Shown piece by piece: positions 4,691-27,737 of a stretch of DNA of 37,361 bases. The DNA comes from Candidatus Bathyarchaeota archaeon (GTDB taxonomy: Archaea; Thermoproteota; Bathyarchaeia; Bathyarchaeales; Bathycorpusculaceae). A program made the position numbers and the translations under genes. Within the stretch, counting starts at the first letter, position 1, and each line of letters opens with the position of its first letter. The stretch spans positions 1-37,361 of the forward strand of contig JAOUPS010000008.1 in NCBI GenBank assembly GCA_029879735.1. The letters run 5' to 3'. Under the pieces are notes generated by a model. That model was not told the DNA's origin. It did no database searches and saw only the letters and a program-made list of their open reading frames with translations.

Positions 4691-4697
4691 TTTTAAA
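4691..4697 (+). promoter_or_regulatory. TATA-like element of uppP
   Basis: TTTTAAA in an AT-rich spacer between the divergent DUF6125-like and uppP genes. It lies about 35-40 bases before the TTG start of uppP, so transcription would begin near 4720. This is a weak match to the archaeal TATA consensus. Confidence 0.4.
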
Positions 4698-4730
4698 CTT
4701 AACCAAAAATAGAAGAGGCGGCGAGAACGT

Positions 4731-6935: not shown

Positions 6936-6950
6936 AAACTTGGCCCTTTT

Positions 6951-7520: not shown

Positions 7521-7619
7521 TTGCCATTCCTTCGCATATCTTTCACTCCTTTCCTTCATAAATGCTTTTAATGTAAAAGAATATCTGCTATTGAAAACAC
7601 ATTAAACCGAGGATATGAA

Positions 7620-8186
7620 ATGATCTCTGACAAGCTTGTTATAGGGTTAGCTGGAATGCCTGGAGCGGGAAAATCCACGGTGGTTAATGTTGCCAAGGAA
7701 GGAGGCTACAAAGTTGTTGTTATGGGTGATGTAGTGCGAGAAGAAGTCGAAAAAAGAAGAATGAAGCCAACCCCGAAGAACCTTGGGAAAATAATGCTCG
7801 AACTAAGACGGATAGAAGGAGAAGCCGTCATAGCTAAGAGGTGTATCCCAAAGATAGAGAAGGTAATGGAGCAGAAGGTCGTTATAGATGGTGTAAGAAG
7901 CTTAAGCGAGGTTGAAGAGTTCAAGAAACATCTCCACCGTTTCAGTCTTATCGCGGTCCACGCGTCCCCAGAAACCAGATTTAGACGACTGTACCGCCGC
8001 AACAGAAGCGACGACCCTAAAAACTGGGAAATCTTCCATGAAAGAGACATGAGAGAACTAAGAGTAGGATTGAGTAACGCTTTAGCCATGGCTGAATACA
8101 TAATAGTGAACGAGGGGGGATTGGAGGTCGTAAAAGATAAGATCCGAGAAGTTTTGAGGAAGGTTGAGGAGAAATGGATGAAGTAA
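7620..8186 (+). CDS. UPF0200 family P-loop kinase-like protein
   Basis: A 188-residue P-loop NTPase resembling adenylate/dephospho-CoA kinases. Walker A is GMPGAGKST (residues 12-20). It is followed by the UPF0200-typical VVMGDVVREEV, TPKNLGKIMLELR and VVIDGVRSLSEVEEFKKH segments, and then an arginine-rich lid (FRRLYRRNRSDDPK). The substrate of UPF0200 proteins is not established to my knowledge. The start is ATG with GAGG 7 bases upstream; a nearby out-of-frame ATG is ignored. It overlaps the next gene (UPF0201) by 13 bases. The UPF0200-UPF0201 pair recurs in archaea, suggesting a shared task, possibly RNA related. Confidence 0.92.
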   Translation: MISDKLVIGLAGMPGAGKSTVVNVAKEGGYKVVVMGDVVREEVEKRRMKPTPKNLGKIMLELRRIEGEAVIAKRCIPKIEKVMEQKVVIDGVRSLSEVEEFKKHLHRFSLIAVHASPETRFRRLYRRNRSDDPKNWEIFHERDMRELRVGLSNALAMAEYIIVNEGGLEVVKDKIREVLRKVEEKWMK

Positions 8187-8575
8187 GCGTACATGTGGAA
8201 GTGGAGATCAACCCGACAGAATCTGAAGATAAAGTGAAGAGGGCTGTTGAAAACATCTTTGGCAGCATACCCGTGCGGATAAAACCTTTACATAAGGGAA
8301 GCCTTCTTGTTGCCGGAGCCAAGGGGTTAGAGGCGCTTACCAAGCTTTACAATTTGTTGCGTCGGGAACGCATCCGCGACTCCGCCAGAAGAGTTCTCTT
8401 TGGAGGATTGCACGGAAATATGATTAGCTTCTATTTAAACAAGCAAGTTGCCTATGCAGGTCACATTTCCTTTTCTGAAGCGGTGGCGGAATCACCTTTA
8501 GGACCAATAAAAGTTGAAATAGAGTGTGAAGACCCTAGGGAGCTTATTGATTGGCTTGCCCCAAGAACAGCGTAG
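8174..8575 (+). CDS. UPF0201 family protein (predicted RNA-binding)
   Basis: A 133-residue archaeal UPF0201 protein. The N-terminal half has the pattern SVHVEVEINPTESEDKVKRA, where a ferredoxin-like strand leads into a helix. The middle contains LYNLLRRERIRDSARRVLF, a basic helix that could contact RNA, and the C-terminal half has SFYLNKQVAYAGHISFSE with strand-like spacing. Structures of this family are ribosomal-protein L5-like (family knowledge, from memory). Function is unproven. It overlaps the upstream UPF0200 gene by 13 bases and is followed by the M20 peptidase gene with one base between stop and start. Confidence 0.88.
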   Translation: MDEVSVHVEVEINPTESEDKVKRAVENIFGSIPVRIKPLHKGSLLVAGAKGLEALTKLYNLLRRERIRDSARRVLFGGLHGNMISFYLNKQVAYAGHISFSEAVAESPLGPIKVEIECEDPRELIDWLAPRTA

Positions 8576-8576
8576 G

Positions 8577-9941
8577 ATGATGGAAATGAGTTTAGAAAAA
8601 GTCTATGCATATATCGACTCTCATACCGATGTTTTTGTTGAAAGCCTCGTTAAGCTTGTTAAGCAACCCAGCGTTTCGGCAAAGGGTGAAGGAATACAAG
8701 AATGCGCAGAACTCGTAGAAAAAATGATGCGAGACACAGGGCTTTCAACAAAAACTCTTCATGAAGAAAAAGGAAACCCCGTTGTCTACGGAGAAATCAA
8801 GTCACAAAAATCTGATAGAACCCTTCTCTTTTATGACCATTACGACGTGCAACCACCTGAACCTCTCGAAAAATGGATGTGCAAACCGTTCAGCGGTAAA
8901 ATAGCCAATGGAAAGGTCTATGGAAGAGGAGCGTCCGACAACAAAGGTAACTTTGTCTCGAGGTTAAAGGCTGTTCAAGCGCTTTTAGAAGTCGCAGGCG
9001 ATGTGCCTGTTAACCTCAAGTTTTTTGTTGAAGGAGAAGAGGAAATTGGAAGCCCACATCTTGAACCAATAATAAAGAGGTATAAGGATCTCTTTTCTGC
9101 AGATGCCGCAATTTGGGAGTCTGGTGGAACTGATAGGCGTGGCAGACCGAATCTGTATCTAGGGTTAAAGGGAGTCTTATCAGTGGAAGTGAGGGCTAGA
9201 GGTGCATCTAGAGATGTTCACTCTGCAAATGCCCCTATAATCCCTAATGCGGCCTGGCGTCTCCTTTGGGCATTAAACCTATTGAAGGATAAGGAAGAAA
9301 ACATCTTGATCGAAGGCTTTTACGAAGATGTTCTTCCTCCCTCTTCCGAAGAGATTGAATGTTTGAAGAATATCCCCTTTGAAGAGGAAGAGACTAAGAA
9401 GGAGTTGGGGTTAAGAGAATTTCTGCAAAACAGGTCGGGATTGGAAGCCCTAAGAACATTGTTGTACCAGCCCACATGCACTATTAATGGTTATGTGTCA
9501 GGCTATACGGGAAAAGGATCCAAAACGGTTTTGCCGCATGAAGCCAGTGCGAAACTCGACTTCAGATTGGTTCCAAACCAAAATCCCACTGAAATATTCC
9601 AAAAACTCGTTAGACACTTGAAAAGGCATGGGTTTGGAGATTTAGAAATAATTAAACATGGTTCTACCGAGCCCACGAGAACACCGGTTAACGATCCTTT
9701 TGTGAAGTTGGTTGCAAGAACCGCTGAGAAAGTCTATTGTAAAAAAGCTGTAATTTATCCCACAAGTGCGGGTTCTGGCCCTATGCACTTATTCCGAAAT
9801 TTCCTGAGCTATCCAGTTGTTTCGGCTGGGTGTAGTCATCCAAAGTCTAATACACACGCGCCTAATGAAAACTTGAAAATTAAAAGCTTTATTAAGGGAT
9901 CAAAGTTAATTGCAACTTTGATCAGTGATTTTGCCTCATGA
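8577..9941 (+). CDS. M20 family dipeptidase / metallopeptidase
   Basis: A zinc peptidase of about 455 residues that would cleave dipeptides or small peptides in the cytoplasm. The metal ligands are visible: H88 and D90 in LLFYDHYDVQP, D121 in GRGASDNKGN, EE at 154-155 in VEGEEEIGSP, an acidic residue in AIWESGG, and the C-terminal His in GCSHPKSNTHAP. A dimerisation domain lies between about residues 200 and 320. A GTG at 8526 would add 17 residues inside the upstream UPF0201 gene. The ATG at 8577, one base after that gene's TAG, gives a family-like N-terminus (MMEMSLEKVYAYIDSH). Amidohydrolase or deacylase activity cannot be excluded from sequence alone. Confidence 0.93.
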   Translation: MMEMSLEKVYAYIDSHTDVFVESLVKLVKQPSVSAKGEGIQECAELVEKMMRDTGLSTKTLHEEKGNPVVYGEIKSQKSDRTLLFYDHYDVQPPEPLEKWMCKPFSGKIANGKVYGRGASDNKGNFVSRLKAVQALLEVAGDVPVNLKFFVEGEEEIGSPHLEPIIKRYKDLFSADAAIWESGGTDRRGRPNLYLGLKGVLSVEVRARGASRDVHSANAPIIPNAAWRLLWALNLLKDKEENILIEGFYEDVLPPSSEEIECLKNIPFEEEETKKELGLREFLQNRSGLEALRTLLYQPTCTINGYVSGYTGKGSKTVLPHEASAKLDFRLVPNQNPTEIFQKLVRHLKRHGFGDLEIIKHGSTEPTRTPVNDPFVKLVARTAEKVYCKKAVIYPTSAGSGPMHLFRNFLSYPVVSAGCSHPKSNTHAPNENLKIKSFIKGSKLIATLISDFAS

Positions 9942-13290: not shown

Positions 13291-13743
13291 ATGAGAGGAC
13301 GCATTACTAAGATCAAAAGAGATGTTAGGGCTCTTTCACCAATCTTTGCTGTTTTGATACTCATTGCTATAGCTGTGATCGCCGGCATCATCGTATACAT
13401 GTTCACGTCTGGATACCTCGGCACAATGATGGGTGGAGGCACCGCTGGACAAGAAAAAGTCGCAATAGAAGCAGTTGAATGCCCAACAGTAAACTCAGTC
13501 ACTGCATGGGCTAAAAGTACGGGCGGAGGCCCCGTCGAAATCACCGAGGCTATACTTAAAGATACTTCGGGGCAGGTAGTAAGCGTTGCCCAGTCGGTTA
13601 CGAATGGTGGTCTTCTTGCCGATGGAACATTGACAAACGTAGGAATCACTTTTACTGGCATGAACGCTACTACTCTGTATACAGTGGCACTTGTTAGCAA
13701 AGAAGGAAACCAATTCGTATCTCCAACATTCAAAAGCCCATAA
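13291..13743 (+). CDS. Archaeal type IV pilin-like protein (small, major-pilin candidate)
   Basis: A 150-residue preprotein with a class III signal peptide. A positively charged leader (MRGRITKIKRDVRA) is followed by LSPIFAVLILIAIAVIAGII, so cleavage is expected after A14. The hydrophobic helix (about 15-36) would form the filament core, and the remaining ~110 residues form a beta-rich head with a glycine-rich linker (MMGGGTAGQ). The RALSPIFAVLI start is typical of the archaeal Pilin_N/DUF1628 class. The very strong ribosome-binding site and first position in the operon suggest this is the major subunit (inference). An antisense frame covers it but lacks protein-like character. It lies 20 bases before the next pilin-like gene. 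Confidence 0.88.
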   Translation: MRGRITKIKRDVRALSPIFAVLILIAIAVIAGIIVYMFTSGYLGTMMGGGTAGQEKVAIEAVECPTVNSVTAWAKSTGGGPVEITEAILKDTSGQVVSVAQSVTNGGLLADGTLTNVGITFTGMNATTLYTVALVSKEGNQFVSPTFKSP

Positions 13744-13763
13744 CTGATCGTAGGGTGGAAACA

Positions 13764-14225
13764 TTGAAGACAAACAGCAATTGCAAAGCCCTTTCCCCTA
13801 TTTTCGCCACTCTTATAATACTTGCGATTGTGACTGTGCTTTTCATTCCAGTATTCATTTGGTCCACGGGGCTTACAGCAGAGACAAAGTCTTTCTGGAA
13901 TATTTCGGGTGAGATAGCCACGGAACGAATAGTGATTGAGGAAGTCAATTTGAGAGGTGGGATACAGAACTGCACGATGTATGTCAGAAACATCGGTAAG
14001 ACAGCGATCACAGCGAGTGATGTTTTCATCTCTTCACCGGATGGCGCTCTGCACATTTACGGGAAAGCCGATTTTGTCACAGATCCTGACTCCGTGGTTC
14101 AGGGAGACTTAACGACTGTCACAATTTCAGATCTTGGCGGCTTCAATCCCGTCGGTAACGTGACTTACACGGTTAAAGTCTTCACGTCCAGAGGGGTTGG
14201 TGACACGTATCAAGTAGTGGCGTGA
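13764..14225 (+). CDS. Archaeal type IV pilin-like protein (small)
   Basis: A second small pilin of about 153 residues. Its leader MKTNSNCKA precedes LSPIFATLIILAIVTVLFI, almost the same processing site as the first pilin (KA/LSPIFA versus RA/LSPIFA). The head domain is beta-rich, with VIEEVNLRGGIQNCTMYVRNIG resembling the N-terminal Ig-like head of other archaeal pilins. I chose TTG at 13764 because GGGTGG lies 5 bases upstream; a GTG at 13755 would overlap that site. It ends with a GTGA overlap with the next gene, so translation is probably coupled. Confidence 0.85.
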   Translation: MKTNSNCKALSPIFATLIILAIVTVLFIPVFIWSTGLTAETKSFWNISGEIATERIVIEEVNLRGGIQNCTMYVRNIGKTAITASDVFISSPDGALHIYGKADFVTDPDSVVQGDLTTVTISDLGGFNPVGNVTYTVKVFTSRGVGDTYQVVA

Positions 14226-15220
14226 CTGTGATGAAGATGCTGCATGTGCGTAAGAGTCTGCGATGCCGAAAGGGCGTTTCAACTATTACCTCCCTATTTC
14301 TGATTCTTTTAATGTTCTCTATACTTATCGGGATTTTCCTAGCTTTCTTCGATTACAATTTTGTTGTGTTGGAGCAGATGAAGATTGAAGACGAACGTTC
14401 ACAGGAGAGAATTGTCCTCTCAGGACTAGAACTGGACAATCAGACTTGCCTTTACAATGTGACCGTCAAGAATACCGGAACAATCGAGGTTAGAGTGAGA
14501 GCCATATACGTTGCTGACGGGACAACGACGGCCTTCATATGCGATCCTTCAGCATACATGGACACGTACATCCCTCCTGATAGATCCCTTAACATAAGTC
14601 TTCCAAGTGGAGTTCCGTTTAAACCTGAAGCAAAAATCATAGCGGCAACAGAGAGAGGTGTAAAGACAAAAGAGTACGAGGCTCTACTAGTTTATGGACC
14701 ACCGAAACCCGTCTGGGAATATGATCCTACAAAGCTTTACATAGGTCCACTGATGCTGCAGTTTGACGCATTTTGGTATCGAAAAACCCTTGGAGATGGA
14801 ACATTAGACCCGAATGAACCTTGGAATCCCGGCTGGAGCATCCCGAAAGGCTTCGGATACTGCGCTTGGAACATAACCGTTATGAACATTGACGACAGAA
14901 ACATAACGATAAACCGATTCTCAACCTTCAACGTAGTGCCGAATGACTCTCCATCAACTGAACTACCCTGGTACCTAGAACCAACTAACCAAACAGACCT
15001 CACACAGTTCTTACCCGTAAACCAAACTCGAAACATAATCTACATTTGGGCCGACCCAAAAGAAGCATCTGGGGATAGCCGTCCTCAAAAGATGACTCTC
15101 CCAGAGTGCACATGCATGGTTTTCCTCACCTTTTTCGGGGTCTTCCATGAGCATGACGGAACAACAACGACCTACGCTCAAACAATACCATTCGAGGCCG
15201 CAATAACCGTTGTAGGGTGA
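14222..15220 (+). CDS. Large pilin-like surface protein (LPF member 1)
   Basis: A 332-residue protein starting with a class III signal peptide: basic leader ending RCRKG (G18), then VSTITSLFLILLMFSILIGI. It is about twice the size of normal pilins. After the helix come an E-x-ER-x-QERIVL segment, an Ig-like domain (LYNVTVKNTGTIEVRVRAIYV, FICDPS) and a second beta domain with GPLMLQFDAF, AWNITVMNIDDRNITI, WYLEPTNQ, NIIYIWADP and a C-terminal FLTFFGVFHEHDGTT...QTIPFEA. The second domain is shared with the two following genes and is not one I recognise. Many N-x-S/T sequons occur. The start may be GTG 14222 or ATG 14231. Possible minor or tip pilin. Confidence 0.8.
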   Translation: MTVMKMLHVRKSLRCRKGVSTITSLFLILLMFSILIGIFLAFFDYNFVVLEQMKIEDERSQERIVLSGLELDNQTCLYNVTVKNTGTIEVRVRAIYVADGTTTAFICDPSAYMDTYIPPDRSLNISLPSGVPFKPEAKIIAATERGVKTKEYEALLVYGPPKPVWEYDPTKLYIGPLMLQFDAFWYRKTLGDGTLDPNEPWNPGWSIPKGFGYCAWNITVMNIDDRNITINRFSTFNVVPNDSPSTELPWYLEPTNQTDLTQFLPVNQTRNIIYIWADPKEASGDSRPQKMTLPECTCMVFLTFFGVFHEHDGTTTTYAQTIPFEAAITVVG

Positions 15221-15235
15221 ATAGGAGGAGCGAAA

Positions 15236-17386
15236 TTGAAGAAACTGGGAAACAAGGCGGTCTCTTCCGTGTTCGGTTCAATACTCTTCCTCATATTAGT
15301 GGTGACTTTAGCTTCAATCCTCTTCTTTACGCTCCACAGATACAATAGCTTGGCTAAAGAGTCAATCACACTTGAACAAGAGCGAATGCAGGAGAGGGTG
15401 GTTCTTTACGCGTTAGCCACACAAAACGTCAGTGAAACCGAGTATGTCGTTGCCATTTATGTCAACAACTCGGGTTCAATAACGTCTCGGATAAGAGCGG
15501 TGTATGTAGACAACGAATTCCTGTGCGACCCTTCAAACAAAAGTTTGAACCCAGATGACACTTACATAAACGCCAAAGAGTCGTTGGGTATTTGGCTGCC
15601 ACCTGGAGTAGAATATGAGCCAATGGCCAAAATAACGGTTGCAACGGAAAGAGGCATCAGATCAACAGAATACCAGTGGAAACTGAAAGGTGGTGGCGGA
15701 GAGCCTCCTCAGTACAAACAAAAAGGATTCTACTATGGACCCTTAATGCTGGATTTCAACAAATTCTACTATACGGAGTGTCCAAGCGGCACGCCAATTC
15801 CTCCGTGGAAGGAAGGTTGGCGCATAGAGATTGGCACAGGTGAAATAGCTTGGAACATAACAGTAACTAATGTCGACGACAGAAACATAACGATAAACCA
15901 GTATTCATGTTTCACTTTGTTTCCCAACAAGTCGCCTTCCAACCGAAGGGCATGGTACTTAGAGCCACGTCAAGAACCTTTCACCCAGTTCATCGCAGTC
16001 AACGAAACCGTTAACCTAATATACATATGGGATAAGCCGAAATCCATATCCACCAAAGTGCAGGACGTATACACTACTGTATGCCGCAACAAAGTTTTCT
16101 TAACCTTTTTCGGCGTTTTCCATGAGCATGACGGCACAACAAAACCATACGGACAAACAATACCTTTTGAGGCTGTTCTATGCTTAAAGACATTTCCTGT
16201 GGCAAAATTCACGGAGTCGGCGCATACAGTTTATACTGGCGAGGTAATAACATTCAATGCTGAAAACAGCTTTGACCCTGATGGTCAAATCGTCAGTTAT
16301 TTATGGAGCTTCGGAGACGGTGTAAACGCTACTGGTGTGGTTGTGGGCCATGCGTACAGCGACGACGGAACCTACACCGTTACACTTACCGTAACAGATA
16401 ATGACAACAAAACTGGGTCAGCAACAGCCGTCAAGACGGTTCTGAACAGACCTCCAATAGCGTCCTTCACAGAATCTGCAGAAACAGTTGACATTGACGA
16501 GGTTATCTACTTCAACGCGTCCGAAAGCTATGACCTTGATGGCCAAATCGAGAGCTACTTCTGGGACTTCGGGGACGGCAACAACGCTACGGGTATTACA
16601 AGCAGCCATTCCTATGCCCAAGACGGAGTCTATACAGTTACTCTTACAGTCACCGACGACGACGGCGACACGGGTTCTGCCTACTCCACCAAAACAGTTT
16701 TGAATAAGCCTCCTGTTGCGTCATTTACGGAGAGCGCCACTCTAGTTCTCACAGGCGAAATCATTCACTTTGATGCTTCAGGCAGTTACGATCCAGATGG
16801 CACCATCTCCAGCTATCTGTGGAGTTTTGGAGACGGCTCCACCGGAACAGGCAAGACTGTGGATCACTCGTATGCTGATGATGGAATCTATACAGTTACC
16901 CTAACGGTGGTAGACAACGACGGAGGAACAGCCTCCACAAGTGACACAAAGACGGTTCTGAACAGACCCCCTGTAGCCCTATTTAACGAGACCGCAGAGA
17001 CAGTTCACATAGGCGAAGCAATAACGTTTAATGCTAGTGACAGCTTCGACCCTGACGGTTATATCGTCAGTTATTTCTGGAGTTTCGGAGATGGCACAAA
17101 CGCTACAGGCGCGGTTGTGAGTCACGCGTACGGTAACAACGGAACCTACACCGTTACACTTGCCGTGACAGATGATGATGGTGCAACCGCGTCTGCAACA
17201 GCCGTCAAGACAGTTCTGAATAATTCAACAACTTCTTTCATTCAGTCTGCAAAATCAAAGCCAGATTTGGGTGAAAGTACAAGTCACAGGCAAGTCAGAA
17301 ATTTTTGCTCTAACGCTGAAAGTGGAAGGTGCATGTTAGTCCTTGTGGCGACAGCAGAAGTAGAGGAGGTGGATGAAGAATGGTGA
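15236..17386 (+). CDS. PKD-domain pilin-like adhesin (LPF member 2; probable 3' frameshift)
   Basis: A 716-residue protein. The class III signal is MKKLGNKA/VSSVFGSILFLILV (cleavage after A8), then QERVVL, the Ig-like and second beta domains shared with its neighbours (FLCDPS, GPLMLDFNKF, AWNITVTNVDDRNITI, FLTFFGVFHEHDGTT, QTIPFEA; to about residue 315). Four PKD domains of 86 residues each follow (about 320-660), each with a SFGDG or DFGDG core and a TYTVTL or VYTVTL strand. The last ~43 residues look out of frame and are translated through the next gene's ribosome-binding site; the +1 frame (17253-17339) reads like the real C-terminus. TTG start with GGAGGAG upstream. It is probably a surface-exposed adhesin anchored in a pilus (inference). 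Confidence 0.82.
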   Translation: MKKLGNKAVSSVFGSILFLILVVTLASILFFTLHRYNSLAKESITLEQERMQERVVLYALATQNVSETEYVVAIYVNNSGSITSRIRAVYVDNEFLCDPSNKSLNPDDTYINAKESLGIWLPPGVEYEPMAKITVATERGIRSTEYQWKLKGGGGEPPQYKQKGFYYGPLMLDFNKFYYTECPSGTPIPPWKEGWRIEIGTGEIAWNITVTNVDDRNITINQYSCFTLFPNKSPSNRRAWYLEPRQEPFTQFIAVNETVNLIYIWDKPKSISTKVQDVYTTVCRNKVFLTFFGVFHEHDGTTKPYGQTIPFEAVLCLKTFPVAKFTESAHTVYTGEVITFNAENSFDPDGQIVSYLWSFGDGVNATGVVVGHAYSDDGTYTVTLTVTDNDNKTGSATAVKTVLNRPPIASFTESAETVDIDEVIYFNASESYDLDGQIESYFWDFGDGNNATGITSSHSYAQDGVYTVTLTVTDDDGDTGSAYSTKTVLNKPPVASFTESATLVLTGEIIHFDASGSYDPDGTISSYLWSFGDGSTGTGKTVDHSYADDGIYTVTLTVVDNDGGTASTSDTKTVLNRPPVALFNETAETVHIGEAITFNASDSFDPDGYIVSYFWSFGDGTNATGAVVSHAYGNNGTYTVTLAVTDDDGATASATAVKTVLNNSTTSFIQSAKSKPDLGESTSHRQVRNFCSNAESGRCMLVLVATAEVEEVDEEW
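16191..17222 (+). repeat. Four tandem 258-base PKD units
   Basis: Four consecutive units begin at about 16191, 16449, 16707 and 16965, each exactly 258 bases (86 codons), and each encodes one PKD domain. Units 1 and 4 are the most alike at DNA level (shared runs such as GGAACCTACACCGTTACACT and GCAACAGCCGTCAAGAC), which points to duplication or conversion within the gene. A fifth unit seems to start after 17222 and then break off. Confidence 0.85.
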
Positions 17387-18357
17387 AAGTGAGAAAGTTT
17401 GCTGAGGACAAAAAAGGGATATCTCCCTTGTTTATTTCGCTGTATCTAGCCTTGATAGTGATTCTCCTCATCTCGATGCTTTTCTTCGCTGTTGAAGTCT
17501 CCAGTTCAGGGTTGAACAGTCGATTGAAAGTGGAACAAGAGCGAATGCAAGAGAGAATAGTCCTGGTTGGACCCGAAGCCTTAGAGTTGACGGATGCTTC
17601 TGTAGTTGAAAGGGTGCGGGTTGATAACGTTGGGTCTATAACTGTTAGAATAAGAGCTTTGTACATTGGGCACGAGTTCATATGTGATCCGTCAGAATTT
17701 GAGGGAGACGCCTACGTAGAACCTAAGGAAAGCCTTTGGATTAACTTGTCTAGTGTTACCCCTGCGATCATATTCAACGATAAGACAGCCAATGCTTATT
17801 GGACCATGACTACAGAAAGGGGTTCAAAGGCATCCGAGATTGGCGGAAAACTGAAGTGGGGAGAACCTGAAATTCCATACACCGCAAACAAGTTCTATTT
17901 TGGCCCGCTCATGCTTGTCTTCGACATGTTCCATTGGAGAAGCGGGTCAGGCCCTTGGACAAGTGGGTGGAGTGTCCCCAAAGGCACAAAAGATGTGACT
18001 TGGCGTATACTGTGTGTAAACATAGACAACAGAGACATCGTATTAACCGACACGTGTTGTTTGACTTTGATCAGCAATGACAACTCTCCGAAAGACCCTC
18101 TGCCATGGTACATCGATCCAACTTTCCCTTATCAGACCATGGCGCTCAAGCCAGGAGTCTTCAACTTCATCCATTACACTTGGAGTAAACCCTTCAGCGC
18201 GGGAGGTACCAAAAGGCAAGCCGTGACCGGTATGCAGGATTTAACCACGTGTATTACCTTCCTCACGTTTTTCGGTCAATTTATAGAAGTAAATAATACC
18301 CTTACGCCCTTCGGTCAAACGATACCTTTCGAAGCTGTACTTGTAACTTCAGAATAG
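17380..18357 (+). CDS. Large pilin-like surface protein (LPF member 3)
   Basis: A 325-residue paralog of the two preceding large pilin-like proteins. The leader MVKVRKFAEDKKG precedes ISPLFISLYLALIVILLISM, with cleavage expected after G13. It shares QERIVLVG, FICDPS, ATTERGS-like TERGSKASE, FYFGPLMLVFDMF, TWRILCVNIDNRDIV, PWYIDP and the C-terminal CITFLTFFGQFIEV...FGQTIPFEAVL. No PKD domains follow, so the family is modular. The ATG is preceded by GAGGAGGTGG at 17363-17372. It is the last of five pilin-like genes; a 79-base spacer with its own TATA box separates it from the ATPase gene. Confidence 0.8.
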   Translation: MVKVRKFAEDKKGISPLFISLYLALIVILLISMLFFAVEVSSSGLNSRLKVEQERMQERIVLVGPEALELTDASVVERVRVDNVGSITVRIRALYIGHEFICDPSEFEGDAYVEPKESLWINLSSVTPAIIFNDKTANAYWTMTTERGSKASEIGGKLKWGEPEIPYTANKFYFGPLMLVFDMFHWRSGSGPWTSGWSVPKGTKDVTWRILCVNIDNRDIVLTDTCCLTLISNDNSPKDPLPWYIDPTFPYQTMALKPGVFNFIHYTWSKPFSAGGTKRQAVTGMQDLTTCITFLTFFGQFIEVNNTLTPFGQTIPFEAVLVTSE

Positions 18358-18392
18358 CCACGCCACAATATGATGCTTCCAAGTTTACACCG

Positions 18393-18399
18393 TTTATAT
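18393..18399 (+). promoter_or_regulatory. TATA box of the pilus-machine genes
   Basis: TTTATAT in the 79-base spacer before the ATPase gene predicts a transcript start near 18420, giving a short leader to the ATG at 18437. It would allow the machine genes to be transcribed separately from the pilin genes. Confidence 0.5.
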
Positions 18400-18436
18400 C
18401 AGCTCCTCGGAAATAAATAATAGAGATGTAGACCAG

Positions 18437-20059
18437 ATGAAAAAAATAAGGGTGAAAGTTGCGTTCAGGAGAAGGAAGGACAAGCAACAGGAAACAAAAA
18501 AACCCGAGTCGGAAGTCTTTCTAGAGACTGAACAATTTTTGGAGACTGGACATTTCATGGCTGAAAAAGCCAAGGAAACTTTCAAGGAGCATTATCCTTT
18601 ACTCAAGCCTTACTCTTACGCTGCGATCGTGAAGAACGCCAGCGATGAAACCAAATATCTAGTATTAGAGCCTACGATGACTTCAACCGATGAAATGTGG
18701 ATTCGCGAAATCAAGGATATTCTTTGGGATGAACTCTCATTAGGGGCTAATGGGTTCAAAGACAAGGAAGAAGCCGAAGAGTTTTTGAAGAACAAAGTTG
18801 AGGAGGCTGCAAGGAAGTACAAGAAAGAAGTGGATCCCCACACGCTAGAGAAATACCAATATTATATTGCACGAGATTTCCTGAACTTCGCCAAGATAGA
18901 CGCTCTAATGCGCGACGAGCATATAGAAGACATTTCATGCGACGGCACAGACATCCCCGTATACATTTGGCATCGCAAATATGAATCCATCCCAACCAAC
19001 CTCGTTTTCAAGACAGATGAAGAACTTGAAAGTTTCATACTCAAGATCGCCTACCTCTGCGGCCGAAATATCTCCATCGCTCAGCCCCTACTTGACGGTT
19101 CACTGCCGGATGGAAGTCGAGCTCAACTCACCTTTGGCAAGGAAGTCACTCCTAAGGGCAGCACTTTCACCATAAGAAAATTCAAGAAAAGCCCGCTCAC
19201 AATAACAGACCTCATCATTTACAAAGCATTATCCCCGGAAATGGCAGCCTACTTTTGGTTTCTCATCGAAAACAGACATTCAGTGATGATTGGGGGAGAT
19301 ATTGGAGGAGGAAAGACGACGATGCTCAATACGTTCAGTCTTTTCATCAGACCAAACTTGAAAATTGTAAGCATCGAAGACACGCAGGAAATCCAACTGC
19401 CACACGAGAATTGGCAGATGATGGTTACTAGACAAGGACTGGGAACGGGAGCAGGTGCAATCGGGGAAAGCGGTCGCGGCTCCATCAGCATGTTCGACCT
19501 TTTGAGATCAGCCTTTAGGCAGAGGCCAGACTACATTATTGTAGGTGAGATTCGAGGAGAAGAGGCGTACGCACTGTTTCAAGCCATGTCTACGGGCCAT
19601 CTTGGTTTGACAACGATTCACGCTGAGAACGTTCAAGGCGTGCTACATCGCCTCACGACGAAGCCGATGAACATCCAGCACACTCTAGTTGAGAACCTCG
19701 ATGCTATTGCAGTAGTCCGCAAAATGGTTGTCAACAACGTTTCGTTAAGGAGGACGATTGCGGTTTCAGAGATGCTCGGATGGGACGACGATAAAGACAA
19801 CTTCAAGGTTCATGAAGTGTTCAGGTGGAACGCTGAGAAAGATGTCTACAAGTCCACGGCGCAGAGCTATTTATTGAAGGAAATCGCGGATCAATGGGGC
19901 TATTCCAAAAGGGAGATCGATCAAGAATTGAAAAAGAGAAAAGTTATTGTTGACTACATGGTGCGTAGACACATCCGCACCTATGAAGATGTTTCGAGAG
20001 TTGTTTTAGACTACTTCTCTGACCCTAAGGCTGTTTACCGCAAGGCGAAGGTGAGTTAG
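18437..20059 (+). CDS. Type II/IV secretion system ATPase (TadA/GspE-like pilus motor)
   Basis: A 540-residue secretion ATPase of the VirB11/TadA/GspE superfamily, the cytoplasmic motor that drives pilin assembly. The N-terminal ~130 residues are charged and probably act as an adapter. The conserved core has DALMRDEHIEDISCDG, the Walker A GGDIGGGKTT (about 286-295), VSIEDTQEIQLPHENW (Asp-box), SMFDLLRSAFRQRPDYIIVG with Walker B and GEIRGEEAYALFQAMSTGH, and TTIHAENVQGVLHRL (His-box). The wording resembles archaeal TadA/EpdA-type motors more than archaellum FlaI, and no FlaH or other archaellum genes are adjacent. It is followed by two membrane proteins, 2 bases and then a 4-base overlap apart. 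Confidence 0.93.
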   Translation: MKKIRVKVAFRRRKDKQQETKKPESEVFLETEQFLETGHFMAEKAKETFKEHYPLLKPYSYAAIVKNASDETKYLVLEPTMTSTDEMWIREIKDILWDELSLGANGFKDKEEAEEFLKNKVEEAARKYKKEVDPHTLEKYQYYIARDFLNFAKIDALMRDEHIEDISCDGTDIPVYIWHRKYESIPTNLVFKTDEELESFILKIAYLCGRNISIAQPLLDGSLPDGSRAQLTFGKEVTPKGSTFTIRKFKKSPLTITDLIIYKALSPEMAAYFWFLIENRHSVMIGGDIGGGKTTMLNTFSLFIRPNLKIVSIEDTQEIQLPHENWQMMVTRQGLGTGAGAIGESGRGSISMFDLLRSAFRQRPDYIIVGEIRGEEAYALFQAMSTGHLGLTTIHAENVQGVLHRLTTKPMNIQHTLVENLDAIAVVRKMVVNNVSLRRTIAVSEMLGWDDDKDNFKVHEVFRWNAEKDVYKSTAQSYLLKEIADQWGYSKREIDQELKKRKVIVDYMVRRHIRTYEDVSRVVLDYFSDPKAVYRKAKVS

Positions 20060-20061
20060 AA

Positions 20062-20937
20062 TTGAAAATTGAGCCGTGGACGTTTGCTTACAGACTGCTG
20101 GGCAAGAGAGTTCCGAAACTTCTACCACATTTCAAGGATTTGCACATCCAATTGAGGAAAGCCGGGTTAAAGATAGCCTTTTCAGCGTACGTGTCATTTA
20201 TGATACTGGTTTCCATTGTTGTACTCATCTTTATGATAGTTGTTCTGCCTTTTTCGTTGCCGTTAATCCTGCACACTAACTTTCTTTCGGTGGAAAACTT
20301 TGCACTCAGCATGATGTTCGCAGCCTTATCGTCAATAATCACGTTCATGCTGGTCTACATTTACCCAGGAATGAAAAGTAGCAACAGGAGAATACCGATA
20401 GAAATCAATCTTCCTTACATTTCAAGCTTCTTGACGTTACTTTCGAGTTCAAACGTGTCTCCAAAAACAATTTTCCGTTCTGTAGCTAGAATAGACACGC
20501 TTCGCGAAGTTCGACAGGAATTCAGCAATATGGTTAGGGATGTGGAAGTTTTCGGTCAAGACTTGTTGACTTCCATTTTGGAAAACGCTAGGTACACGCC
20601 AAGCGACAGGCTGCGGGAGATTCTTAACGGATATGTGGCAACGGTCAGAACAGGCGGCGACCCAACAGAGTACTTGCGAATATCCACAAGAAACATCATG
20701 AAGGAGAAAATGGTTAAGCTAGATTTGATGCTAGAGTCGCTTTCAGCCCTAGCTGAAATATATATAATGGTGCTGGTAGCCATGCCGCTTCTTTTCGTGG
20801 TGATGTTTGCTACCCTTGGAATGTTAGGTGGAGGAACCATGGACCCATCACTAATGCTTTATCTCCTAGCGTATGTGGGCATACCTATCATGGCCATCGT
20901 TCTAATCGTAGTCATGTCCACTTACACGGTGAAGTGA
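20062..20937 (+). CDS. Type II secretion F / TadB-C-like pilus membrane protein 1
   Basis: A 291-residue integral membrane protein of the GspF/TadB/TadC/FlaJ fold, the platform on which the ATPase acts. Two N-terminal hydrophobic segments (about 40-70 and 80-105) precede a cytoplasmic helical domain (INLPYISSFLTLLSSSNVSPKTIF through ILNGYVATVRTGGDPTEYL), and two more segments lie near the C-terminus (about 230-260 and 265-290). The helical region with a R-x-GG motif is family-typical. It starts with TTG directly after the ATPase stop, and its own stop overlaps the GTG of the next membrane gene (GTGA). Confidence 0.9.
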   Translation: MKIEPWTFAYRLLGKRVPKLLPHFKDLHIQLRKAGLKIAFSAYVSFMILVSIVVLIFMIVVLPFSLPLILHTNFLSVENFALSMMFAALSSIITFMLVYIYPGMKSSNRRIPIEINLPYISSFLTLLSSSNVSPKTIFRSVARIDTLREVRQEFSNMVRDVEVFGQDLLTSILENARYTPSDRLREILNGYVATVRTGGDPTEYLRISTRNIMKEKMVKLDLMLESLSALAEIYIMVLVAMPLLFVVMFATLGMLGGGTMDPSLMLYLLAYVGIPIMAIVLIVVMSTYTVK

Positions 20938-21770
20938 ACATTATGAAAATCACGAGAGCAACATTAAGAAGGACCGCTATAGTGTCTTCTATTGCAGCAG
21001 TCGCTATATTCATAGCCTCAATATTCTTTTACGGCTTGTCTCCAGACTTAGACTATCTCCTTATAGTAGCTTTCACTGTAGGTGTCGGACCAGTAAGTTT
21101 GGCGAGCATAATCCACAAGAGATGGAAGAACAAGATAGAGAAAGCCGTGCCAGAGTTCTTAAGAGACTTAGCGACTTCCATTCGAACTGGAATGCCTATA
21201 CAAGCAGCTTTGGAGCATGCCTCAAAACGAATGTATGGTCCACTGACGGATGAGCTCAAGTTAATGGTGGCGCACATGAGTTGGGGAATGAATTTTGATG
21301 AAGCTTTGAAAGAGCTCAGCGAGAGAATTGACTTACCACTAGTCGAAAAAGCAACTGTTCTAATCCTAGAGGCGAGCAGGCATGGGGGAGATCTTTCTGA
21401 CATTTTTAACTCGACCGCTGAATACGTGGAAAACGTCAACACTTGGGGTTTGAGAAGGAAAATGCAGACGATGCCTTATGTAGCCATATTCTACTTTTCA
21501 GTCGCTCTCTTCCTATTCATAGTCATATTGATTTCAAGAATGATATTCGTCCCCATAAGCGAACTGGCTGAAGGCGGCGTCCCCATGATTAACCCGGTCC
21601 TCACTTCAACGCAGACTAGGAGAGTGTTTCTGCACACGTCTCTGATGGAGGCCTTCTTCGGAGGCATTCTAGCTGGGAAGATCAACGAAGACTCGTTTCT
21701 AGACGGGTTAAAACATGCGATGGTTCTGGCGATAGTCTCAGGCGTGGCGTTCTTCCTTTTCTTCCGATAG
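20934..21770 (+). CDS. Type II secretion F / TadB-C-like pilus membrane protein 2
   Basis: A second GspF-fold membrane protein of 278 residues, overlapping the first by 4 bases. Hydrophobic segments lie at about 15-35, 37-55, 190-210 and 255-277. The cytoplasmic domain carries VPEFLRDLATSIRTGMPIQAAL and VLILEASRHGGDLSDIFN, the classic GspF/TadC pattern. An archaellum uses one FlaJ, while Tad and archaeal Epd systems use two smaller F-type proteins, as here. The start may be GTG 20934 or ATG 20943. A 57-base gap containing a TATA box follows. Confidence 0.9.
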   Translation: MNIMKITRATLRRTAIVSSIAAVAIFIASIFFYGLSPDLDYLLIVAFTVGVGPVSLASIIHKRWKNKIEKAVPEFLRDLATSIRTGMPIQAALEHASKRMYGPLTDELKLMVAHMSWGMNFDEALKELSERIDLPLVEKATVLILEASRHGGDLSDIFNSTAEYVENVNTWGLRRKMQTMPYVAIFYFSVALFLFIVILISRMIFVPISELAEGGVPMINPVLTSTQTRRVFLHTSLMEAFFGGILAGKINEDSFLDGLKHAMVLAIVSGVAFFLFFR

Positions 21771-21794: not shown

Positions 21795-21827
21795 GATTCT
21801 CTGCAAAATGAATTGTGGGATTCCGAT

Positions 21828-23207
21828 TTGAAAAAAAGAGCGAAACAGCGCGAAGCCAATGGAAAGGCTGAAGGAAAAGGACAGTTGTATGACCAGTTGA
21901 GCTTGAATGAGATCAAAGAGCTCGCGCTTGTAAAACCAGGCTCGGAAGAAGAAATCGAACTTAAGAGAAGGGAAGCCTATATCGAACGTCCTGCACAGAA
22001 ACTTCTGCGGAATCTTCTAGAGAGTGGGAAAAAGGCGGAGATTCTGCCTACTTATGATCCGTCCTCTAGTTTCAGATATGAAACCGTTGAGTCAGTTTTC
22101 GATGAGAATGTTTCACCGGCAAAGGCGGAAGAGTTTCTGGAACGCCTCTGCCACCTAGAGATTCTGAGAAAGAGTTTTTTCGACACAGTTTCAGCTTGTC
22201 CTGTGTGCGGCTCAACATGTATCACCTTACACTACAGCTGTCCAGGATGCACCAGCCGCCACATTATCAAGACAGGCTTGACTGAGCACATCCCATGCGG
22301 AAACATTGAGGAAAGAGACAAGTACATTCAAGGTCATCGGATGCCCACGTGCCCTAAATGCGGAACCAGATTGGTTGAAGGCGAATACAGAGATATGGGT
22401 CTCTGGTATGTCTGCAAGGAATGCGGAGAAAAGTTTGAACACCCCCACCTAGACGTGACTTGCCGCAAGTGTGACAACAAATTCAAAGTTGAAACGGGAA
22501 TCATACGGGAAATATCCAAGTACGCTCTTAATCCGGATAGAGAACAGGAGATCAGGCAGAACGTCACGAGCTTGGAGAGTATTCACAAGCTTCTAACCGA
22601 GCTGGACTTCAGCGTGGAGATGCCCGCCTCAGCGACCGGAGAAAAAAGTGGCATCCAACACAAGTTTAGTCTCATAGCCAAGAAGAAGTTCGGGGGCCGT
22701 GAAAACATTGTGGCTGTCGATCACGCTGTCGGAGACGTCGACGTAAGCGTGTCACCCCTGATACTCTACATCTATAAGATTTCGGAAGTGAGGGTTGATT
22801 TACCGATATTCGTTGCCATTCCAAAACTGGGTGAGACTGCGAGAAGGATAGCGCAAGGCTACAATATATTGGTCATTGAGGGCATCCCGAAAGAAAAGGA
22901 ACGACTAGCCATGCTGAACGATGAAATCCAAAAGAGGCTGAGTGAAAGAACCATGATCTCGGAGGGTGAAATCGTGCATCAGTGGATCTTTCGCAAAGGC
23001 AAGAAAGTAGATGTCTGGAGAAACGGCAGAGGCAAGTTTGTAAAGGGAGAGCATTATCGGAGCCAAATGAGTTTACAGAAATTGCCCTTAACCCAGAGCT
23101 TATCGAATCCGCAACTACACGCAGAACCCGAACCGAAGAAAACACGGTTAATGCAAAGAATAAAAAAAGCAATAAAGAGAAAATCAAACCACAAAGAAAA
23201 ACAATAA
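21828..23207 (+). CDS. TackOD1-like zinc-ribbon protein with nuclease-fold-like C-terminus
   Basis: About 459 residues. The N-terminal ~110 are charged and helical. A zinc region (about 120-215) has the cysteine arrangement CPVCGS, CPGC, a HIPCGN segment, CPKCGTRL, a WYVCKECGEKFEHP stretch and CRKC, which matches from memory the TackOD1 (thaumarchaeal output domain 1) pattern. The following domain (about 250-370) has NIVAVDHAV, then LPIFVAIPKLGETARRIA and NILVIEG, resembling restriction-endonuclease-like folds, although a clear D-(D/E)xK triad is not visible. The tail is basic (KKTRLMQRIKKAIKRKSNHK). Start TTG 21828 is favoured over 21813. It follows the pilus genes and may sense or regulate something (inference). 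It ends convergent to the membrane zinc-ribbon gene. Confidence 0.75.
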   Translation: MKKRAKQREANGKAEGKGQLYDQLSLNEIKELALVKPGSEEEIELKRREAYIERPAQKLLRNLLESGKKAEILPTYDPSSSFRYETVESVFDENVSPAKAEEFLERLCHLEILRKSFFDTVSACPVCGSTCITLHYSCPGCTSRHIIKTGLTEHIPCGNIEERDKYIQGHRMPTCPKCGTRLVEGEYRDMGLWYVCKECGEKFEHPHLDVTCRKCDNKFKVETGIIREISKYALNPDREQEIRQNVTSLESIHKLLTELDFSVEMPASATGEKSGIQHKFSLIAKKKFGGRENIVAVDHAVGDVDVSVSPLILYIYKISEVRVDLPIFVAIPKLGETARRIAQGYNILVIEGIPKEKERLAMLNDEIQKRLSERTMISEGEIVHQWIFRKGKKVDVWRNGRGKFVKGEHYRSQMSLQKLPLTQSLSNPQLHAEPEPKKTRLMQRIKKAIKRKSNHKEKQ

Positions 23208-23886: not shown

Positions 23887-23967
23887 CAGAGAAAATGATT
23901 CTCGTGCGTGTTTGTGTTCTCTTGCACTATTGCATGTTTCGGAATATTGAGGATTTCTGCGTACGTG

Positions 23968-23975
23968 TTTATAAG
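23968..23975 (+). promoter_or_regulatory. TATA box of the secreted-protein gene
   Basis: TTTATAAG predicts a start near 23998. AAAGGAGA at 24007-24014 is a ribosome-binding site 7 bases before the ATG at 24022. This decides the start of the secreted protein and excludes the longer open frame from 23908. Confidence 0.6.
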
Positions 23976-24021
23976 GGAACGTCTGAAAATTATTATTGAA
24001 GAGAAGAAAGGAGAATCAAGA

Positions 24022-25653
24022 ATGAAACCAAAAGCAATCGTAATAGTATTGCTTCTTACGAGCATGCTAAACGTTGCATTGAATGCTATGCCTGTTCAGA
24101 CCAGCAATGGCGGAAACATCGTTGTCAACGGCGGCTTTGAGGACCCAGTGGTGGAACATGCGGAAAAATGGGATATCTACAATTCAGCGGAGATACCTGG
24201 ATGGAGTGTGGAGTGGATGCCGTCGGTGCCTGCGTCGTGGAGTGGTGAGACAAGACCTTCTGACGCCAGCATTGAGCTGCAGAGACTAGTGTTTGATTGG
24301 ACGGCTATCGAAGGAAGCCAGTGGGCGGAGCTGGACTCCGACTGGGACGGCCCTACGAACGGCCTTAATAATGAACCGGCTTCCATCAAAATCTACCAAG
24401 AGCTCCATACGGTGCTACATGGCGTTTATAACCTGAGCTTTGCCTTCTCCCCACGTCCCGCTGTGGAGGAAAACAAGCTCGAGGTCAGGTGGGGTGGGGA
24501 AGTTGTCGCTGTTCTTGAGGCGAATGGCACGGAACTCTCAGACACGGATTGGACATACTACGAGTACATGGTGATTGCCACGAGCACGAGGACTCACTTG
24601 GAGTTTGCTGACCTGAGTGCATCTGACGCGGTTGGCACATTCTTGGATGACGTAAGCGTGAAGCTGAAAGGCGAGCCCACCGTCACGGATCTCATCGCCG
24701 GTCAGCACATAAAAGCTGGCACAGTCCTCGTTTGGAACGACGGGACGCATCTTTACGTTCAGTACAGCACTATGCTTGGCTGGTTCTTGACCAAGACGCA
24801 CCTAGCAGTTGCCACTTCTCTGGGTGGCATCCCGCAGACCCCTGGTGGCAATCCGATCCCAGGTCTATTCCCCTACCAAACGATTCACGATCCGTGGGTT
24901 ACACAGTACACATACATCATCGAATTGGACGGATGGAGTGTAGGCACTAATCTTTACATAGCAGCCCATGCCGTGGTAAAGAAAACGTGTACTTCTGGAT
25001 CACAAAATGTCGTTGTTAACGGCGGGTTTGAGGAGCCAGTGGTGACGAATGCGGAAGACTGGGATATCTACGCTTCATGGGAGATATCTGGATGGAGTGT
25101 GGAGTGGATGCCAGGACCTGACACGTATGAAGGCTACACAAGACCTTCTGACGCGTACATTGAGCTGCAGAGACTAGTGCTTGATTGGACGACTATCGAA
25201 GGAAGCCAGTGGGCGGAGTTGGACTCCGACTGGGATGGCCCTACGAACGGCCTTAATAATGAACCGGCTTCCATCAAAATCTACCAAGACCTCGTAACAG
25301 TGCCTGGTGGAGAGTATCGCCTCAAGTTCTACTTCTCCCCGCGCCCAAACACAGACGCTTCTAACAATGTCCTAAAAGTAACGTGGGACGGGATGGATAT
25401 TGATACCATAAGCCTAGCTGGAGGCAGTGACACCATATGGACGTATCACACATATACACTAACCGCGACAGGTTACACAACTCGCCTGGAGTTCGCTGAT
25501 ATGGGAACCTCTGACGCACTTGGACCGCTTCTGGATGACGTTAGGGCTTGCGGACCAACATTTTGTGGTTGCGAGACAGCTTGGGGTGACGGAGAAGACT
25601 TCCCTGGCACCGACTGGTCAATGTACTTCACTCACACCATCTACGACCCGTAA
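24022..25653 (+). CDS. Secreted surface protein with duplicated carbohydrate-binding-like domain
   Basis: 543 residues from the ATG with a good ribosome-binding site. It starts with a signal peptide (MKPKAIVIVLLLTSMLNVALNA). Two homologous domains follow at about residues 30-215 and 328-512; each begins VNGGFE(D/E)PVV and contains GWSVEWMP, SQWAELDSDWDGPTNG and DALG-like LLDDV segments. This matches the jelly-roll DUF642/CBM-like pattern. Between them is a linker domain (HIKAGTVLVWNDGTHLYVQY), and a short C-terminal cysteine region (CGCETAWGDGEDFPG) ends the protein. No PKD, anchor or sorting motif is present. It is probably an extracellular glycan-binding protein (inference). Confidence 0.8.
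   Translation: MKPKAIVIVLLLTSMLNVALNAMPVQTSNGGNIVVNGGFEDPVVEHAEKWDIYNSAEIPGWSVEWMPSVPASWSGETRPSDASIELQRLVFDWTAIEGSQWAELDSDWDGPTNGLNNEPASIKIYQELHTVLHGVYNLSFAFSPRPAVEENKLEVRWGGEVVAVLEANGTELSDTDWTYYEYMVIATSTRTHLEFADLSASDAVGTFLDDVSVKLKGEPTVTDLIAGQHIKAGTVLVWNDGTHLYVQYSTMLGWFLTKTHLAVATSLGGIPQTPGGNPIPGLFPYQTIHDPWVTQYTYIIELDGWSVGTNLYIAAHAVVKKTCTSGSQNVVVNGGFEEPVVTNAEDWDIYASWEISGWSVEWMPGPDTYEGYTRPSDAYIELQRLVLDWTTIEGSQWAELDSDWDGPTNGLNNEPASIKIYQDLVTVPGGEYRLKFYFSPRPNTDASNNVLKVTWDGMDIDTISLAGGSDTIWTYHTYTLTATGYTTRLEFADMGTSDALGPLLDDVRACGPTFCGCETAWGDGEDFPGTDWSMYFTHTIYDP
24253..24402 (+). repeat. Internal duplication, copy 1
   Basis: A 150-base segment in the first domain, matching 25141-25290 with about 8 mismatches (roughly 95% by eye). 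The wider repeat starts near 24118 and lies 888-891 bases from its partner. Confidence 0.8.
25141..25290 (+). repeat. Internal duplication, copy 2
   Basis: Copy of 24253-24402 in the second domain. The similarity is much higher than in the rest of the two domains, as expected for recent gene conversion or duplication. Confidence 0.8.
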
Positions 25654-25791: not shown

Positions 25792-26502
25792 CTACATTGG
25801 ACCCATCCTCTTTCTAAATATAAATAATCCCAAAGCATAATTATGCTCGGAGGGAATTACTCTTCTGGCTTCATTCTCTGAGCATTTAACCCAGACATCT
25901 TCCGAATTATTCTTATAAAATTCCTCAACTTCAACTTTGAAATTATCATAAACATATTTTAGCAATCTACTGTTTTTGTTATAAACCCTATGTAGAGGTT
26001 TTATTGTTTTTTCTCTTCCATAGGGAACTGTAAGAATTAAGATCCCCTGAGTGTTCAAAAGTTGCTTTACTTTCTCAATAGCCTTCATGTCCCCATCTTC
26101 AATATTTCTGGACCCATATCTGCCCCCAAGACCAATATGCTCAATTGTGGAACACAACACTACAACATCATATGAAACTTTGAAATCTAATGAAAGAAAA
26201 TCACCTTGGAGATGATTTACTCCTTGATAAACGTAAGGAGACGGAAGAAGGTCCACTCCATCCACGGTAAAACCGAGCTCTCTGATTATCGTTGTTAAGG
26301 GCGATGCGTAGCAACCTATATCGAGAACACTTCTGTATCTGCTCCTATCGAGACCTATCAAGTTTTTGATAACAAAACCATACTCAATGCATCGATCGCC
26401 ACTTAATGGGTTCAAGATCGGATTTGATTCGAAGAAAACACTTCCTAATTTTAATATCAACTCACGAATTAACATTCTTAATTTAATCTTCACTCTAATC
26501 AT
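25792..26502 (-). CDS. Class I SAM-dependent methyltransferase
   Basis: A 236-residue methyltransferase with motif I in VLDIGCYASPLTTIIRELG, motif II around VDGVDLLPSPY, motif IV in YDVVVLCSTIEHIGLGG and the post-I region ILILTVPYGREK. It is the type found in glycan loci, where such enzymes methylate sugars or phosphates, but the substrate cannot be read from sequence. It is the last gene of the minus-strand glycosyltransferase run, 137 bases after the preceding GT2. A GCGCACGCAAT element and AT-rich spacer lie just upstream of its ATG, so it may have its own promoter. Confidence 0.82.
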   Translation of the reverse strand: MIRVKIKLRMLIRELILKLGSVFFESNPILNPLSGDRCIEYGFVIKNLIGLDRSRYRSVLDIGCYASPLTTIIRELGFTVDGVDLLPSPYVYQGVNHLQGDFLSLDFKVSYDVVVLCSTIEHIGLGGRYGSRNIEDGDMKAIEKVKQLLNTQGILILTVPYGREKTIKPLHRVYNKNSRLLKYVYDNFKVEVEEFYKNNSEDVWVKCSENEARRVIPSEHNYALGLFIFRKRMGPM

Positions 26503-26528
26503 TTTGACTCACGATTTTTGGTCTCTCC

Positions 26529-26539
26529 GCGCACGCAAT
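26529..26539 (-). promoter_or_regulatory. GCGC element upstream of the methyltransferase gene
   Basis: Read on the minus strand: ATAATAGATTGCGTGCGCGG, lying 26-45 bases before the methyltransferase ATG. It belongs to the recurring TATA-GCGC motif described in the findings. Confidence 0.35.
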
Positions 26540-26589
26540 CTATTATGAGAATTATTCTTGTACAAGATTTCATAAGACCTCAGACTGAA

Positions 26590-26616
26590 AAGCGTTACCG
26601 AACTTGGATAACGCTT
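26590..26616 (-). terminator. Hairpin after the first GT2 gene
   Basis: A perfect 8-base inverted repeat (AAGCGTTA / TAACGCTT) with an 11-base loop lies 23 bases downstream of the GT2 stop on the minus strand, followed by TTCAG. It may be a transcription terminator or mRNA-end stabiliser; a small structured RNA is also possible. Confidence 0.4.
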
Positions 26617-26639
26617 CTAAATTCTGTGATCCTAGGCGA

Positions 26640-27719
26640 CTAGCGTTCGGGCTCTAACTTGAACGTAAATCGTTCATTTGAAAATCTTAATCTCTTATCC
26701 TGTATTGCGTGTGCTATCTTTGTGAACGATTTATAACGGGCACTCACCGTGCTTCTTAGATTCTTGAAATTCCAAAAAATTGCACTAACAGATGCCTTGT
26801 AGGACAACCATGGATCAGCCAAGGTGCCTCCCATCACAATTGAATAAAGGCGTCGATTATATAAAAGAAATTTATCTATATGAAGCAGTGAAAGAAGAGC
26901 TCTGAACGATTCCATCAAGCCTCCTAAAACTACGTATCTTGAAAAGTGAAAAAACATTAAGAGACAAGGAAAATTCTTGACTATGAACCTGATGTGATTT
27001 CTATAGTAGAAATATTTCTTCCTGTAATTCCATTTTCCAATAGTCGAGCTCCCTCGATGCCAGAAAATGGCGGAAGGCTCGTATATTATTCTGAAACCTG
27101 CTTTTTTGGCCCTAAAACAAAAATCAGTGTCTTCGTAATAGAAGTAATACGCTGGATCGCAGAGACCGACCTTTTCGAATACTTCTCTCTTGACTGCAGG
27201 GACTGTAACGTAATCAACTTCCATCCGAACGCCATATTGCTTCGAGTCGTGTTCTAGACATCCTATGAGCGGGGTTGTTCCTCTTAACAGGTTCACCCTT
27301 CCAGCTGAACCATCTAGTATCTCGTTAGAACCCCAACGGAATCTCTTCCCGCAAACTATCCCAATCTCCGGCGAGCTCACCAATGTTTTAACTATATTTG
27401 TCATCCATAATTCGTCTACCTTATCATCATTGTTTAAGTCAAAGATAATTATCTCTCCCCTTGCCAGTTGAACCCCAAGATTAATAGCTTCGCCTATGCC
27501 TATCCTCTTCTCTTCTACAAGTCTTACGTTCGAAAATTCTCTTCTCACCATTGCGGGTGAGCCATCAGTTGAACCGCAATCCACGACAATGACCTCATAG
27601 TTTGGATATCGCAATTTTGTCAGAGAATTCAGACACTCTTTCAGCAAGTCTCGGCCATTGTAATTTGATATAATCACAGAAACTAATCGGAGCCTGTCAT
27701 TCATTAAATCACACTGCAT
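26640..27719 (-). CDS. GT2 family glycosyltransferase
   Basis: A 359-residue family 2 glycosyltransferase. The GT-A fold is shown by SVIISNYNGRDLLKECLNSL, the NDP-sugar binding VVDCGSTDGS, an acidic IIIFDLNNDDKVDE (metal-binding Asp cluster) and YYEDTDFCFRAKKAGF, the ED-type acceptor/base motif. The C-terminal ~100 residues after WHRGSSTIGKWNYRKKYFYYRNHIRF are partly hydrophobic and may dock on the membrane. It is close in sequence to the GT2 at 31775 and less so to the one at 34078, suggesting local duplication. It belongs to the minus-strand glycan cluster. Donor and linkage are not predictable. Confidence 0.9.
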   Translation of the reverse strand: MQCDLMNDRLRLVSVIISNYNGRDLLKECLNSLTKLRYPNYEVIVVDCGSTDGSPAMVRREFSNVRLVEEKRIGIGEAINLGVQLARGEIIIFDLNNDDKVDELWMTNIVKTLVSSPEIGIVCGKRFRWGSNEILDGSAGRVNLLRGTTPLIGCLEHDSKQYGVRMEVDYVTVPAVKREVFEKVGLCDPAYYFYYEDTDFCFRAKKAGFRIIYEPSAIFWHRGSSTIGKWNYRKKYFYYRNHIRFIVKNFPCLLMFFHFSRYVVLGGLMESFRALLSLLHIDKFLLYNRRLYSIVMGGTLADPWLSYKASVSAIFWNFKNLRSTVSARYKSFTKIAHAIQDKRLRFSNERFTFKLEPER

Positions 27720-27737
27720 AGAGTAGATATGCTCTTC

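Follow-up and report, generated by a model that had tools for sequence, protein, structure and literature searches.

Organization of the locus

The window, that is, the whole 37,361-nucleotide stretch of DNA analysed here, corresponds to contig C97 in a Bathyarchaeota MAG of 2.14 Mb from an uncultured host. Its forward strand carries a run of genes in a single direction, in which those for five prepilins of 150, 156, 332, 716 and 325 aa (pilins A to E) precede those for a secretion ATPase and two T2SSF proteins of one domain each; every gene that the first-pass annotation had placed between 13291 and 21770 agrees exactly with the ORF list. A gene in the same direction at 21813..23207 encodes a TackOD1 zinc ribbon protein (PF18551, 1.3e-26), probably a regulator or accessory component. 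TackOD1 genes stand near many other loci with a split platform (split F) across the phylum, and TackOD1 proteins are known from thaumarchaeal pilus loci (PMC5847659).

Promoter and terminator scans of the window gave nothing beyond what shuffled sequence gives, Rfam and tRNA searches of the window returned zero matches, and viral copies were looked for and none were found. Just downstream of the pilus operon and in the same direction, positions 23908-25653 encode a secreted protein with two stretches of DUF642, a family often called galactose-binding-like. Positions 25792-37304 hold a run of glycosyltransferases together with a PMT_2-type membrane protein and sugar-nucleotide epimerases.

Class III prepilins and the two small pilins

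Canonical class III sites are present in all five pilins (KRDVRA/LSPIF, NCKA/LSPIF, RKG/VSTIT, NKA/VSSVF and KKG/ISPLF). The rule applied was a strict motif rule made for this analysis rather than a trained predictor, and about 0.04% of shuffled N-termini pass it; it was passed by 5 of the 59 window ORFs of at least 90 aa, exactly the five pilins. The first-pass annotation, which had described five genes with class III signal peptides, two encoding small and three encoding large pilin-like proteins, is borne out by this rule. A prepilin peptidase gene (Peptidase_A24) is located elsewhere in the genome, on contig C81.

Pilin A (13291..13743, forward strand; 150 aa, about 136 aa when mature) is the candidate major pilin and the only one of the five above the cut-off of TIGR02537, the archaeal pilin N-terminal model. 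Among solved structures, that of the Pyrobaculum calidifontis pilus lies nearest to it (8fk7, E 1.8e-8), and its orthologs stand first in loci L014 and L015 of two other Bathyarchaeia genomes. Because pilin A is the closest of the set to solved archaeal pili and its gene is preceded by a ribosome-binding-like GGAGGTGG, it would be the best candidate for the shaft subunit. Pilin B (13755..14225, forward strand; 156 aa), whose true start may be the TTG at 13764, is a putative minor pilin or adaptor. It shares 75% identity with its ortholog in L014 and 57% with that in L015; its matches to UpsA and UpsB are weak and far under cut-off, and those to BasA and ArlG are weak too (for ArlG, 18.5 bits against a cut-off of 110).

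The assembly motor

The pilus assembly ATPase (18437..20059, forward strand; 540 aa) contains a T2SSE domain (PF00437, 6.4e-36) with the P-loop GDIGGGKT. It is followed on the same strand by platform protein F1 (20062..20937; 291 aa), an N-half type matching residues 30-227 of UpsF, and platform protein F2 (20934..21770; 278 aa), a C-half type matching UpsF residues 264-437. Each of the two membrane proteins bears a T2SSF domain (PF00482), so that the secretion ATPase and two F-type membrane proteins recognised in the first pass are confirmed by Pfam. Among solved structures the ATPase is closest to the Archaeoglobus fulgidus GspE (2oap, 390 bits), followed by FlaI (258 bits) and CpaF (141 bits).

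It is very improbable that the locus encodes an archaellum or a Tad system of the bacterial type. FlaI is the best NCBIfam model for the ATPase, with 408.7 bits, and two F proteins are present as in Tad; the FlaI score nevertheless falls under the cut-off of 550, and the TadA score of 147.7 bits under a cut-off of 373. The genome possesses a separate archaellum on contig C32, the ATPase of which scores 531.6. At the locus itself Pfam and NCBIfam models find no archaellum genes, in agreement with the reported absence of flaH, flaF and flaG: there is no ArlF, ArlG or ArlH, nor any Flp pilin or TadZ. A phylogeny of the kind proposed in the first pass, a tree of 55 rows, places the window ATPase with those of L015, L067 and L068 (100/100), a group that falls among the split-F Thermoproteota pilus ATPases, while the archaellum rows form a separate 100/100 group and Tad a 100/100 outgroup. 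On the strength of this tree and the model scores, both identities were rejected. The label "Tad/Epd-like" fits just the split platform, since the tree excludes the archaellum and bacterial Tad; the two single-domain F proteins speak for the likeness to Tad and the ATPase speaks against it. Tad is further characterized by a short Flp pilin and TadZ, and Epd by a short major pilin (PMC6668835), whereas the smallest pilin here, the candidate major pilin, has about 136 aa in its mature form, and no TadZ-like gene was found among the annotated genes of the locus. Split platform proteins are common in Thermoproteota. Judged from its sequence, the locus encodes a type IV pilus of the archaeal, split-platform kind, with class III prepilins, an ATPase of the archaeal pilus clades, a T2SSF platform and a prepilin peptidase encoded in the same genome.

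Two further pilus loci accompany the archaellum in this genome, one with a split F (contig C94) and one with a fused F (contig C81). The C94 locus (3702-9840) includes a TackOD1 gene as well as a 475-aa pilin that has a large head and belongs to another family, and relatives have such loci too. On C81, positions 4569-7469 encode a 966-aa surface protein with beta-helix, PKD and Big_1 domains, whose gene immediately precedes that of the fused-F pilus ATPase.

Large pilins with a shared head and an old triplication

Large pilins C (14222..15220; 332 aa), D (15236-17386; 716 aa) and E (17380..18357; 325 aa), all on the forward strand, constitute one family with 41-47% identity across about 320 aa, and their named relatives are Candidatus Bathyarchaeota records. 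An AlphaFold model of C (mean pLDDT 80.5) displays a long helix followed by two beta domains with a linker between them. The first beta domain is a pilin domain that matches the archaeal pilus 8fk7, as does the profile of the whole C/D/E family (E 7.9e-11). The same two-domain head makes up E, which has no arm, and occupies 15236..16189 of D, where it is delimited by alignment with C and E and its second domain is modelled at pLDDT 88.7. This second domain has no match in the PDB at E <=0.001; it is named just "Ig-like" because its best fold matches are Ig-like sandwiches (ApaG and Kir channel domains) at a TM of about 0.4-0.45. N-glycosylation sequons number 8 in C, against 2.4 expected by composition, and 17 in D, against 7.9.

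The family is homologous to a 335-aa pilin of the C81 locus and its relatives (hhalign 99.5%). In a pilin tree with the C81-type proteins as outgroup, C (93/98), D (99/98) and E (99/99) each form one clade across three genomes, and the triplication must accordingly predate the divergence of those genomes. An old triplication of the two-domain pilin is thus read from the tree, and three separate roles of C, D and E have probably been kept.

The search of related genomes for this pilin set, as proposed in the first pass, was run class-wide and detected the tight C/D/E family in 4 of 257 Bathyarchaeia genomes spanning three families: the window genome, G144, G152 (which holds L014) and G239 (which holds L015). 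Across a sample of the phylum, the wider pilin family was matched in full only within Bathyarchaeia, with two partial matches elsewhere. L014 and L015, the sole two loci besides the window that show pilin order, retain the gene order A-B-C-D-E. The order in G144 was left unused because Ns adjoin the locus and the ATPase is present in two near-identical copies; these copies (L067 and L068) lie in the same MAG, each with a large pilin, and Ns interrupt the locus. An independent cluster of three large two-domain pilins occurs beside a fused-F platform gene in L070 (8262-13088).

Among the loci sampled, the wider pilin family elsewhere sits with fused-F motors, including at loci with two or three copies, and the window locus therefore joins a split-F motor to that family. 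The C81-type locus has a homologous two-domain large pilin and a similar small pilin; it differs from the window in the clade of its ATPase, in its fused F and in its large pilins, which number one to three and in the copies seen bear neither PKD nor Big_1 arms.

PKD and Big_1 arms

Behind its head, large pilin D of the window carries an arm of four tandem PKD domains (16199..17218, forward strand; PF18911, 1.3e-92, in 4 stretches), which are 59-73% identical to one another in a repeat comparison, and E of the window carries none. The D protein of L014 has a Big_1 plus four PKD, and its E, a gene that runs off the contig, has a Big_1. In L015 it is E that bears an arm, of two Big_1, and D that lacks one; in G144 a PKD lies beside the E gene, with E itself devoid of an arm. 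As differing arms are found on like heads, the arms vary while the carrier heads and the visible gene order stay. A pilin module is here fused to extra non-pilus domains, as in modular tip pilins. From their domain type alone the arms would be adhesive; PKD and Big_1 are structural Ig-like modules, and the arms may be mere spacers.

The last 57 or so residues of D (17219..17386, forward strand) have no homology and are possibly out of frame, a GGG-stop tail resembling that of L014 being present in another frame of the window. The D proteins of L014 and G144 end soon after the last PKD with a Gly-rich tail. The tail in the window may reflect a frameshift in the MAG, or else genuine decay.

The first-pass annotation had regarded the large, modular pilins as the unusual part of the locus. 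They are modular and likely bear adhesins, but their size alone is less unusual, since each of the three pilus loci in this genome includes large pilins and a split F is common; what is unusual is that the triplication is old and that the arms vary.

A proposed shaft with an armed tip, and its alternatives

The reading preferred here, to which we assign a probability of roughly 0.6, is that pilin A forms the shaft, B is a minor pilin or adaptor, and C, D and E make a three-subunit tip with outward adhesive arms, the turnover of which would change what is bound. The prepilin peptidase would cleave the five prepilins, and the ATPase with F1 and F2 would assemble a shaft in which pilin A predominates. 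The other four would serve as minor pilins, B as the adaptor, and a complex of C, D and E would prime assembly and cap the tip. Adhesion would fall to outward-pointing PKD or Big_1 arms of D and/or E, and turnover of these arms among lineages would alter the binding of the pilus. The one-to-one clades of C, D and E imply three positions kept apart since before the genomes split; placement of those positions at the tip is by analogy with PilABC of Streptococcus sanguinis (PMC9934059), its modular PilB (PMC8179133) and the Kil tips on the Tad pili of Myxococcus (PMC12075869), and we infer it as such. Because the adhesin-like row of domains moves or changes between relatives, the filament probably carries an exchangeable sticky tip. 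The earlier suggestion of a filament that may display big adhesin-like heads is probable given the PKD and Big_1 domains on the large pilins.

With archaellum and Tad set aside, two other arrangements would make different use of the same proteins. C, D and E could be shaft subunits of a heteropolymeric filament decorated along its whole length by heads and PKD arms, as they retain the full pilin helix and an 8fk7-like pilin domain, and archaella of two alternating subunits as well as heteropolymeric bacterial pili have been described in the available text of two reports (PMC8821640, PMC10628169). This is unlikely, though it deserves more weight than the others: the bulky heads and arms of some 400 aa would crowd a shaft, ordinary small pilins are already provided by A and B, and paralogs kept one-to-one suit a defined complex better. 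Less probable again is a short surface scaffold like the Sulfolobus bindosome, on which the Ig and PKD arms would bind substrates such as polysaccharides. The match of the ATPase to BasE (226.9 bits) falls far under its cut-off of 1000, the pilins have no substrate-binding protein domains, and pilin A resembles an ordinary filament pilin, all of which weigh more than the BasE match itself, the weak BasA match of pilin B and the nearby secreted DUF642 protein and glycosyltransferases.

Comparison with known pili

Thermoproteota pili with a split TadC-like platform share with the window, in the part of the archaeal census drawn upon here, class III pilins, a VirB11/PilB-type ATPase, two single-domain platform proteins and a nearby TackOD1 (PMC4858521). 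Minor pilins of variable length, along with large proteins that are potential adhesins, are already on record there for archaeal pilus loci (Makarova et al. 2016, PMC4858521); the passages drawn upon contain no triplicated two-domain pilin set with PKD or Big_1 arms, and the text of the paper mentions neither Bathyarchaeota nor PKD. The P. calidifontis flagellar-like type IV pilus (8fk7) matches pilin A and domain 1 of C, D and E in sequence and fold, but its pilin is single-domain, with no second Ig domain and no arms.

Among bacteria, the tip PilABC of Streptococcus sanguinis, with its modular pilins PilB and PilC, likewise has several minor pilins within a set of five pilins, with binding modules grafted onto some of them (PMC8179133, PMC9934059); it belongs to a bacterial T4a pilus, however, and its vWA and lectin modules are not homologous to the parts grafted here. 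The Kil tips (LMN) of Myxococcus and the TadEFG of Tad pili comprise three minor pilins whose C-terminal domains vary, borne by a split-platform pilus as in the window, and differ in being bacterial, with a Flp-type major pilin, unrelated head domains and a role in predation (PMC12075869). Such exchangeable-head tips exist in bacteria; for archaea none comparable came up in the literature retrieved, nor did anything specific on Bathyarchaeia pili. What is new at this locus is the old one-to-one triplication, the turnover of arms between D and E, and the combination of split-F motor and pilin family. The fullest statement, a dedicated tip of an anciently triplicated two-domain pilin, with PKD and Big_1 arms exchanged between two of its three subunits and a split-platform motor joined to a pilin family that in the loci sampled is otherwise served by fused-platform motors, as an archaeal counterpart of the Kil/TadEFG and PilABC tips, is put forward tentatively and falls somewhat short of an even chance.

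If true, archaea would gain a defined set of tip subunits, and the binding of the pilus would evolve through the swapping of Ig-type arms on conserved carrier pilins. The locus would also offer a concrete handle on the attachment of uncultured Bathyarchaeia to particles or partners.
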